Source: Microbacterium sp. (lineage in GTDB: Bacteria > Actinomycetota > Actinomycetes > Actinomycetales > Microbacteriaceae). Taken from it: a stretch of DNA of 51,214 nucleotides. Shown here piece by piece: positions 41,198-44,054 of the stretch (its first letter is position 1; every line of letters begins with the position of its first letter). The stretch covers positions 52,607 to 103,820 of the forward strand of contig NZ_WOYP01000067.1 of the NCBI RefSeq assembly GCF_011620715.1, given 5' to 3'. Below the pieces are notes generated by a model. It made no database searches and had not been told where the DNA came from. It was given only the letters and a program-made list of their open reading frames with translations. Both the position numbers and the translations under genes were made by a program.

Positions 41198-42241
41198 TCA
41201 CTCGCCGCGGTACACCCGCGGCACGAGCGGTGAGACGCGGACGAGGATCTCCTCGCCCACCGTCCCGATCGTCTCGGCGAGATCCGTCGCCGACGCAGCA
41301 TCCGGTCCGAAGACGGTGACATCTTCGCCGACGGCGGCGTGCGGCCACGGGGAGACGGTGGTGTGGAACGGGCCGATGTCCTCGACGGCGATGCGGCCCT
41401 GCGCAGGCGCGAGCACAGCGTGCCGCGCCAGCGACGAGGGCAACCCGTGCAGGGCGCCCACACCGATGCTGACCGCGTGGTCGGCGACGTGCGTCACCGG
41501 CGCGAGAAGCGTGGCGACGGGACGGACTCCGAGATCCGCCTCCGCAGGGCCCCCCGCCGAACGCACGCCGTAGCAGAAGGCGCCCACCCGGACGAGGTCG
41601 TACCGGAACTGCGGCCGTGCGAACGACGCGGCGCTGGCGGCGAGATGACGCACCTCGAGCGCGAAACCGGCGTCTTCAGCCGCACGGACCGCCTCGTCGA
41701 AGATGCCGCGCGCAGCGTCGTCCTCCTGATCGCTCGCCTCGGCGAGGTGGCTCCACACGCCCACGACCCGAATCCGTCCCGCCCGCTCGAACGCACGTGC
41801 CCGATCGACCACCATGGGCCAGTCCTCGGGCCGGATGCCGTTTCGGTGCAGTCCGGTGTCGATCTTGAGATGAACCCGCGCCGTCTCCTCGCTCGCACCG
41901 GCGACCGCGGCGACGTCGTCGAGGAACTCGGCGTCGCCGACACCCAGGTCGATGTCAGACGACAGCGCATCCGCGATCTGGTCTCGGCCCACCGTGAGCC
42001 ACGAGAAGACGCGCGCCCGCGGCCCGGCCGCCCGCCGAGCGCGCAGCGATTCGCGCACATCGAACGCACCGAACCAACCGATGCCTTCGACCACAGCCCG
42101 GCGGATGATCTGCTCGAGTCCGTGCCCGTAGGCGTCGTCCTTGACGATCAGCATGAGCTGTGCCGGAGCGACGTGCGCGCGCACGACGGTGAGATTCGCG
42201 GCGAAGTCGTCGAGGTCGATCCGCAGCTCCGGTTCGTTCAT
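41198..42241 (-). CDS. Alanine racemase-like protein B: full barrel with PLP Lys, divergent C-terminal domain lacking the Tyr motif
   Basis: VKDDAYGHGLEQ, LKIDTGLHRNG, YDLVRVGAFCYG; C-terminal VGALHGLPSSLARHAVLAPAQG where SYGRTYR-type motif is expected. Confidence 0.88.
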   Translation of the reverse strand: MNEPELRIDLDDFAANLTVVRAHVAPAQLMLIVKDDAYGHGLEQIIRRAVVEGIGWFGAFDVRESLRARRAAGPRARVFSWLTVGRDQIADALSSDIDLGVGDAEFLDDVAAVAGASEETARVHLKIDTGLHRNGIRPEDWPMVVDRARAFERAGRIRVVGVWSHLAEASDQEDDAARGIFDEAVRAAEDAGFALEVRHLAASAASFARPQFRYDLVRVGAFCYGVRSAGGPAEADLGVRPVATLLAPVTHVADHAVSIGVGALHGLPSSLARHAVLAPAQGRIAVEDIGPFHTTVSPWPHAAVGEDVTVFGPDAASATDLAETIGTVGEEILVRVSPLVPRVYRGE

Positions 42242-42966
42242 GCGACGTACTCCCGGTCGTTGCGCAGTCCGATGGCGGTGACGAGCTCGGCGGGGGTCAG
42301 ACCGGTCGCGGCGCTCCATTCCGCCAGTGTCGGAGAGCCTGGCGCCCCCTCGCCGAAGAAGACGACATCGTCCCCGCGGTGCACGGCATCATGCGACCCG
42401 ACCTCGACCACGCAGACATCCATCGCGACGCGTCCGATGATCGGATGCCGCTCGCCTGCGATCAGCACCGATGCGGCGTTGCCGAGAGAGCGCACCACCC
42501 CCTGCGCATAGCCCCCGGTGATCAGGGCGACCACGGTGTCGCGAGGAGCGCGATACGTGTAGCCGTAGGAGATGCCCTCCCCCGCGCGAAGGCTCTTGAA
42601 GCTGAGCACCGTGCCGCGCAGACTCAGCACGGGTGTGAAGCCCGCGGTCAGTCCGTACACGGCTTCTGGCTTGGTTGCTTCGCCCGTCACCTCAAGCAGT
42701 GCCGGATCGACTTCGCCGGTCAGGGCCGTTCGGGCGTGCTCGTCGACGAGCAGGCCCGCGGCACCCGCCGCGATCGCCCGGCCCGCCACCACGTTCACGC
42801 CATGGCCCCAGGCGTCCGCGCGCACGTCGACGACAGCGCTGCGAGTGCTGGCGACGACGGCACGCAGATTGAGGTCGAGTGCGCCGAGCGAGATCCGCGC
42901 CGCGGGTGCGGTGCGTCCCGGCATGCCCGGGCCGCGTGCCGGGCGCCCGCGGATGCCGAAGGTCAC
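42238..42966 (-). CDS. Alanine racemase-like protein A: shortened barrel with Lys->Arg, intact C-terminal domain
   Basis: ISLGALDLNLRAVVASTRSAVVDVRADAWGHG then LSLRGTVLSFKSLRAGEGISYGYTYRAPRDTVVALITGGYAQGVVRSLGNAASVLIAGERHPIIGRVAMD; ATGA overlap with the downstream gene. Confidence 0.88.
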   Translation of the reverse strand: MTFGIRGRPARGPGMPGRTAPAARISLGALDLNLRAVVASTRSAVVDVRADAWGHGVNVVAGRAIAAGAAGLLVDEHARTALTGEVDPALLEVTGEATKPEAVYGLTAGFTPVLSLRGTVLSFKSLRAGEGISYGYTYRAPRDTVVALITGGYAQGVVRSLGNAASVLIAGERHPIIGRVAMDVCVVEVGSHDAVHRGDDVVFFGEGAPGSPTLAEWSAATGLTPAELVTAIGLRNDREYVA

Positions 42967-43031
42967 GGCATCTAGACTATCCGGGGCCCTCTGCCCATCG
43001 CCCGCCCATCCCGTCCCACCCCGGAGCATCA

Positions 43032-44054
43032 ATGCCTCAGAAAGGCCTCGGCCTCTCGCCCCGCCTTCGCTACCTCGCCGGCCGCGCGCGACGGATCGAC
43101 GTCAAATCCGTCATCGAGCGCGCGAAGCAGTCCTCCGCCCAGCATGACAAGTGGACCCCCGCGATCGTCGTCGACATGCTGTGGCAGGCGGGCTTGCGCA
43201 ACGTCGGCTTTCAGGACTACATCGACTACGACTTCGCCATCCTGAGCCGCGACGAGCGGGCCACCTACATGACCCACCCGGTCTCGAACCAGCTCTCGCA
43301 GAAGTTCGATCATCCCGATTTCCGGTACATCTTCCAGGACAAGGTCGAGTTCGACCGCGTCTTCAGCGAGCACCTGCACCGGGACTGGATGGTCGTCGAA
43401 CCCGGCAATGCGGCCGACGTGCGCGCATTCGCGCAGGGCCACGGCACGATCGTCACGAAGGAACCGGTCGGACAGGCCGGCACCGGAGTGCATCGCTTCC
43501 GCGCAGCCGAGATCGATGATTGGGATGCCTTCCACGAGGGCCTGCTCGAGCGCGGAGAGCTGCTCATCGAAGAGGTCATCGTCCAGCATCCCGATCTCGC
43601 CGACGTTTGCTCCGGAACGGTCAACACCACCCGCATCACGGCGTTCTTCGATGGCGAGCGAGCCCACATCCTCGCGATGGCCCAGAAGTTCGGGCGCGGC
43701 GCGGTCAGCGATCAGATGACGTTCGGCGGCTTCTACACGATGCTCGACGAGAGCGGCCATGCGGTCGGTCCCGGATACGACTCGCACGGGCACGTGTACG
43801 AGAAGCACCCCGACTCGGGGTTCGTCATCGGCGAGTTCCAGCTGCCGATGATGGACGATGTTCGTGCATTCATCGACCGCGTCGCGCGCGTCGTGCCCCA
43901 GGTGCAGTACGTGGGCTGGGATGTCGTGGTGACGCCTGACGGTCCTGTGCTCGTCGAGGGAAACTGGGGCGCGGGCGTGTACGAAAACAAGCCCAGCGCC
44001 ACCGGCATCCGCACCGGGCACAAAGCGCGGTACCGCGAAGCGATCGGATTCTAG
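43032..44054 (+). CDS. ATP-grasp protein (sugar-transfer-associated / alpha-L-glutamate ligase-related)
   Basis: IVTKEPVGQAGTGVHRF, LLIEEVIVQHPDLADVCSGTVNTTRITAF, YVGWDVVVTPDGPVLVEGNWGAG. Confidence 0.8.
   Translation: MPQKGLGLSPRLRYLAGRARRIDVKSVIERAKQSSAQHDKWTPAIVVDMLWQAGLRNVGFQDYIDYDFAILSRDERATYMTHPVSNQLSQKFDHPDFRYIFQDKVEFDRVFSEHLHRDWMVVEPGNAADVRAFAQGHGTIVTKEPVGQAGTGVHRFRAAEIDDWDAFHEGLLERGELLIEEVIVQHPDLADVCSGTVNTTRITAFFDGERAHILAMAQKFGRGAVSDQMTFGGFYTMLDESGHAVGPGYDSHGHVYEKHPDSGFVIGEFQLPMMDDVRAFIDRVARVVPQVQYVGWDVVVTPDGPVLVEGNWGAGVYENKPSATGIRTGHKARYREAIGF

Follow-up and report, generated by a model that had tools for sequence, protein, structure and literature searches.

The two adjacent genes designated A and B, on the minus strand of the window (the whole stretch of Microbacterium sp. 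DNA analysed here, 51,214 nucleotides), very probably encode the partners of an obligate heterodimer with one composite active site, represented in some relatives by a one-chain pseudodimer. Alanine racemase (Alr), an antibiotic target (of D-cycloserine), is the textbook case of a homodimeric enzyme. The ordinary homodimer has two sites, each composed of the barrel of one subunit and the C-terminal domain of the other; the barrel contributes Lys39, Arg136, His166 and Arg219, and the C-terminal domain of the partner contributes Tyr265', Met312' and Asp313'. As judged from sequence comparisons, A and B would together make up one PLP-dependent amino-acid racemase with the alanine-racemase fold, an obligate heteromer; B would provide the lysine-bearing barrel and A the tyrosine, giving one two-base site, and the opposite site would be lost. 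The overlapping stop and start codons would hold A and B near a 1:1 ratio, and in lineages without a canonical alr D-alanine would be made by the split enzyme, encoded by two genes or as a single B-A chain. Physical assembly of A with B, catalysis, translational coupling and the substrate are what we infer from these comparisons. No description of a heteromeric or split alanine racemase was found in the open-licence literature.

Gene A (42238..42966, minus strand, GTG start, 242 aa) encodes the predicted tyrosine-donor subunit and gene B (41198..42241, minus strand, ATG start, 347 aa) the predicted PLP-barrel subunit. The stop codon of A and the start codon of B overlap in the tetranucleotide ATGA (42238..42241, minus strand), presumably with translational coupling; the first-pass annotation had described two minus-strand open reading frames sharing this ATGA, and both were found where it had placed them. 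The A protein consists of a remnant barrel (residues ~20-93) followed by a complete alanine-racemase C-terminal domain, and its sole Pfam match was Ala_racemase_C (119 bits). The shortened barrel with a Lys to Arg change ascribed to A by the annotation was borne out, VDVRADAWGHG (K39 to R) being read and no barrel domain being matched in Pfam, as was the retention of the C-terminal tyrosine motif (SYGYTYR, within GEGISYGYTYR) and of GRVAMD. The B protein has a complete N-terminal barrel (Ala_racemase_N, 174 bits), with the motifs IVKDDAYGHG, LKIDTGLHRNG and YDLVRVG all present as had been noted, and a C-terminal domain without the tyrosine loop (second half of Ala_racemase_C matched weakly, 26 bits). 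The annotation had also stated that VGALHGLPSS replaces the SYGRTYR motif in B. The tyrosine motif is indeed missing, but VGALHGLPSS aligns with the downstream GYADG-P and the tyrosine segment is deleted, not replaced. In searches of the PDB, A matched the C-terminal domains of Alr proteins (best E 2.4e-31) and B matched the Alr 1vfh (E 8.6e-46). Scores against the NCBIfam alanine racemase model TIGR00492 (cut-off 168 bits) were 116.7 bits for A and 138.2 bits for B, both below the cut-off. Since neither chain holds a whole active site or reaches this cut-off, A and B are not filed as Alr; the pair lies outside the family as filed and would work like a member of it.

Active-site residues were compared in 41 A/B sets and 16 canonical Alr proteins from the same family. 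The catalytic Lys39, which forms the Schiff base with PLP, is present in 16/16 Alr and 41/41 B proteins (Lys34 of the window's B, 42140..42142, minus strand) and in none of the 41 A proteins, where the equivalent position (Arg49 of the window's A, 42820..42822, minus strand) is R in 33, S in 5 and D, I or A in one each. K129, R136, H166 and R219 are likewise present in all 41 B proteins, and the segment bearing K129, R136 and H166 is deleted from the A proteins. The reverse holds for the tyrosine side. S264-Y265-G266 is present in every A protein, the catalytic Tyr265' equivalent being Tyr134 of the window's A (42565..42567, minus strand), and falls in a gap in every B protein; in the window's B the deletion lies at 41485..41486 (minus strand) and removes ~19 residues (equivalents of ~255-275). 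Met312' is conserved in 41/41 A and 0/41 B proteins (Met182 of the window's A, 42421..42423, minus strand), and position 313 is D in 38/41 A proteins. Equivalents of Y354 vary and are uninformative, the surrounding C-terminal region aligning poorly. Compared with the closest named relative, the two genes gave dN/dS values of 0.30 and 0.26, and A and B are both under purifying selection. A complementary pattern without exception in 41 sets, together with purifying selection, makes the pair more than the product of chance or decay. With B as the only PLP-capable barrel and A as the only source of the tyrosine, an A:B dimer would have a single complete site, with Lys from B and Tyr from A.

The survey of co-occurrence across the Microbacteriaceae that the annotation had proposed was carried out by searching 400 genomes with A. 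The 40 loci retrieved, with the window, make up the 41 A/B sets (20 genera); B directly adjoins A at 40/40 of these loci, so that linkage of the two genes was upheld throughout, and the pair lies nearly always between parE/parC and rpoD. The overlap is exactly 4 nt in 32 of the 39 two-gene sets. For the window, the ParE protein encoded beside the pair indicates the genus Microbacterium, the nearest named genome being that of Microbacterium sp. cf046 (95% in ParE). Within Microbacterium, B was found in 163 of 197 genomes and was absent from 34. In a class-wide search (297 genomes), A-type proteins occurred only inside the Microbacteriaceae among the matches listed. A second A-B pair was observed ~5 kb past the first in one genome (G221; L101, 11640-12598), and the B match of M. 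caowuchunii (G556:C1:1735073-1736095) contains one in-frame TGA, which may reflect an error of sequencing, a change of frame or a pseudogene.

Natural fusions of the two genes occur in both orders. A and B form a single A-B frame in one genome (L099), and single B-A chains were found in three genera (g68, g19 and g46; L187-L194, L214 and L224-L231), in which the Lys half precedes the Tyr half and each half carries the same losses as in the pair. In the g46 fusions (L228-L231, four genomes) one open frame joins a B half, the C-terminal domain of A and a TsaE-like P-loop domain; here the A part is cut down to the catalytic C-terminal domain, with SYG and MD retained. The B-A fusions exceed the TIGR00492 cut-off (274 and 209 bits). 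That fusions exist in either order argues strongly, if circumstantially, that A and B act together. One genome (G230) contains both the A-B fusion (L099) and a B-A fusion (L192).

Canonical alr genes were also searched for. No other alanine racemase was found in the assembly that contains the window (2.36 Mb in 124 contigs, 94.7% complete). All close relatives of the window genome have a canonical Alr, 73-76% identical to that of another Microbacterium, and given this and the completeness of 94.7% the missing alr is probably an assembly gap. The full-genome search suggested in the annotation thus returned no canonical alr from the assembly, and the notion of an organism without one was not accepted, on the same two grounds. 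A control search with PF00842 gave a hit in only 8 of the 14 known genomes; among those missed was Corynebacterium glutamicum, which has an Alr structure in the PDB (2dy3). Because this control was incomplete, absence of alr was rechecked with a full-length Alr query. With that query the A-B pair was the sole match in G013 (identified as Tropheryma whipplei Twist; one contig, 927,303 bases), and the B-A fusion was the sole match in G133 and in two single-contig genomes, G108 and G091. The T. whipplei pair adjoins parE, and a candidate D-Ala-D-Ala ligase is present in that genome. T. whipplei has two class-IV aminotransferases: one scores as an aminodeoxychorismate lyase (452 bits against a cut-off of 273) and the other resembles IlvE in size. 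G133 has a single protein of this class. The split form was thus the sole candidate for D-Ala synthesis to be found in these genomes. Genome content points to alanine racemisation in T. whipplei, in g46 and in parts of g19 and g68; it carries no such implication in Microbacterium. Uptake of D-Ala from a host is conceivable for T. whipplei. The testable parts of the heterodimer reading put forward in the annotation (complementary loss, adjacency, the 4-nt overlap, fusions in both orders and sole-copy genomes) all favour it at the level of sequence.

Structures were predicted with AlphaFold2 for the natural B-A fusion L224, using an alignment of 16 natural fusions, and for the A protein of the window alone. 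The L224 model (pLDDT 83.8, pTM 0.87) superposes over ~350 residues of its N-terminal half on the M. tuberculosis Alr 1xfc (TM 0.88, rmsd 2.7); longer Foldseek alignments (~596 columns, necessarily spanning both halves) gave an rmsd of ~16.5. This value fits a placement of the A domain other than that of the barrel's own C-terminal domain, and the position of a partner subunit is not proven thereby. The model of the window's A (pLDDT 83.5) has 3-4 beta-alpha units ahead of an Alr-type beta domain, and matched Alr 5fac with a Foldseek TM of 0.79 over the query.

Two other accounts of the pair bear on these results. B alone might be the enzyme, using another base or catalysing a changed reaction, with A as a non-catalytic, prozyme-like stabiliser or regulator. 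B does retain a complete barrel, and tyrosine-less PLP proteins of fold type III exist (PLPBP/YggS), though these are not racemases of such a kind. This account is nonetheless quite improbable, as A keeps just what B has lost (Y265 and M312 in all sets, D313 in nearly all), which would be needless in a structural partner, and the g46 fusions have reduced A to precisely the domain with the intact SYG and MD. That the pair is a decaying alr duplicate, split by mutation and non-functional, might be thought because each half looks broken alone and most relatives have a canonical alr; it is scarcely credible in view of the dN/dS of 0.26-0.30, the complementary residues in every set, the spread over 20 genera and the status of the pair as sole such sequence in T. 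whipplei. Decay was rejected for the family as a whole on dN/dS, conservation and sole copies.

The heterodimer so favoured resembles several known systems in part. It shares with Alr/DadX (fold type III; TIGR00492, PF01168 + PF00842) the fold, the total set of catalytic residues and a site built from two chains, and differs in dividing these residues between two different chains, with one predicted site per dimer against two. The Bar/Lyr and BsrV racemases are homodimers. Bar/Lyr (4dyj, 4dza) and BsrV (7agz) have the same fold and make amino acids of the D-Lys/D-Orn type, but their active-site residues are complete in one gene. PLPBP/YggS proteins have, like B, a PLP barrel without the catalytic tyrosine; in contrast to these, B is not single-domain (PF00842 is matched over its last 69 residues, and full-length Alr chains are matched to residue 346), is nearest to Alr and always stands with a tyrosine-bearing partner. 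In the trypanosomatid AdoMetDC with its prozyme, and in ODC with antizyme inhibitor, a former homodimer has acquired a paralogous partner partly stripped of its active site. One subunit there is essentially dead or regulatory, whereas here each is predicted to hold an indispensable half-site. If the heterodimer reading is true, the pair would be a clean example of the passage from homodimer to obligate heterodimer through complementary loss, with possible intermediates extant as tandem loci of full-length genes, as split two-gene pairs and as A-B or B-A fusions; T. whipplei would then depend on a split enzyme for D-alanine.

Trees were built with FastTree and as quick trees, separately for the barrel and C-terminal domains. 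The barrel tree grouped the B proteins of the operons (0.989) together with the second gene of tandem loci with two full-length alr genes (L014, L016, L026, L028, L250 (G023) and L251 (G032)); this B-clade second gene retains both Lys39 and Tyr265, and these tandem loci may represent either the ancestor before the split or a return to the full-length form. K129 is replaced by T, N or C in some copies at the tandem loci. The B halves of the fusions fell with canonical Alr in the same tree, away from operon B, and a mixture-model tree agreed in outline. This placement suggests an addition to the main reading, in which the heterodimer stands and canonical alr gave rise to the B-A fusions independently, the split having occurred at least twice. 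Such a separate origin is a serious possibility, though one that stops short of being favoured: an AU test did not reject a tree that unites every B type and the tandem genes in a single clade (p = 0.75), and in the short C-terminal tree the A proteins and the A halves of the fusions stood together on one side of a 0.944 branch. TsaE, which the g46 fusions include, is the usual neighbour of alr.

Cell-wall chemistry was compared with the occurrence of the pair as a guide to substrate. The wall diamino acid of Microbacterium is D-Orn, L-Lys or Dab, by species (PMC10757982). The pair is present in M. schleiferi (Orn wall; pair located away from parE), M. hatanonis (Orn wall; G374), M. caowuchunii (Orn wall; G556) and M. 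galbinum (D-Orn wall; L138) and was not found in M. saccharophilum (Lys wall; L155/G402), the wall chemistry of these five species being taken from PMC10978784 (Table 2) and PMC10757982. It is also present in M. flavescens, M. trichothecenolyticum and M. resistens, and was not found in M. lacticum (G448) or M. hominis. The walls of the former three contain D-Orn and those of the latter two L-Lys. None of the 10 species conflicts with a pattern of presence with Orn and absence with Lys; the contrast, uncorrected for relatedness, gave p = 0.2 (Fisher) for the five cited species and p = 0.008 for all 10. Agromyces and Cryobacterium have B2-type walls with D-diaminobutyric acid. No pair was found at the same locus in these two genera, and a search of one whole genome of each gave a canonical-type match only. 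A role of the pair as general marker of D-diamino-acid walls in the Microbacteriaceae is thus unsupported, and the absence from these samples argues against a universal role of the pair as D-diamino-acid racemase.

As Microbacterium keeps a canonical alr, the product of the pair there is probably a second D-amino acid. D-ornithine, plausibly for the cross-bridge of type-B2 peptidoglycan, is the foremost candidate, and as substrate in this genus ornithine appears somewhat ahead of alanine. The split racemase might instead act on alanine everywhere, serving in Microbacterium as a second source of D-Ala, with the match to ornithine walls coincidental. In genomes with no other such enzyme D-Ala would have to come from the split form, and the Orn/Lys sample is small. 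Alanine as the universal substrate is nevertheless rather doubtful, because a canonical alr stands alongside the pair in every pair-bearing Microbacterium checked, the window assembly excepted, and the pair is missing from the 34 Microbacterium genomes noted above, Lys-wall species among them. The full combination, in which the pair supplies the missing D-ornithine racemase activity for type-B2 peptidoglycan in Microbacterium and the split arose at least twice, once as the A-B operon and once by conversion of the housekeeping alr into one-chain pseudo-heterodimers that replaced it, is unlikely as a whole. If the pair does make D-ornithine, it would give the D-diamino acid of type-B peptidoglycan a first gene. 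This D-diamino acid has been a classification trait for decades, and to our knowledge no gene has been assigned to it.

Two neighbouring genes are possible functional partners. An ATP-grasp protein (PF14397, ATPgrasp_ST; 43029..44054, plus strand) is encoded divergently 62 bp upstream of A, followed by an F420-0:gamma-glutamyl-ligase-like protein (PF01996; 44051..44749, minus strand). The latter often accompanies the pair in several genera and also occurs in Microbacterium without the pair. The ATP-grasp protein of the window shares 68-86% identity with its counterpart in most pair-bearing Microbacterium, and mostly 50-56% with its counterpart in Microbacterium without the pair at the same locus. 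It might ligate the bridge amino acid, with a specificity tracking that of the racemase; phylogeny alone could also explain the pattern of identities. A contig labelled Stenotrophomonas maltophilia P13 (JACEFY010000023.1, L163) bears a Microbacterium-type rpoD/CofE/parE/parC region and is probably a case of contamination or mislabelling. In T. whipplei (L244, 7633-9788), the pair is followed on the opposite strand by GatD/MurT-like genes (wall glutamate amidation; named by eye).
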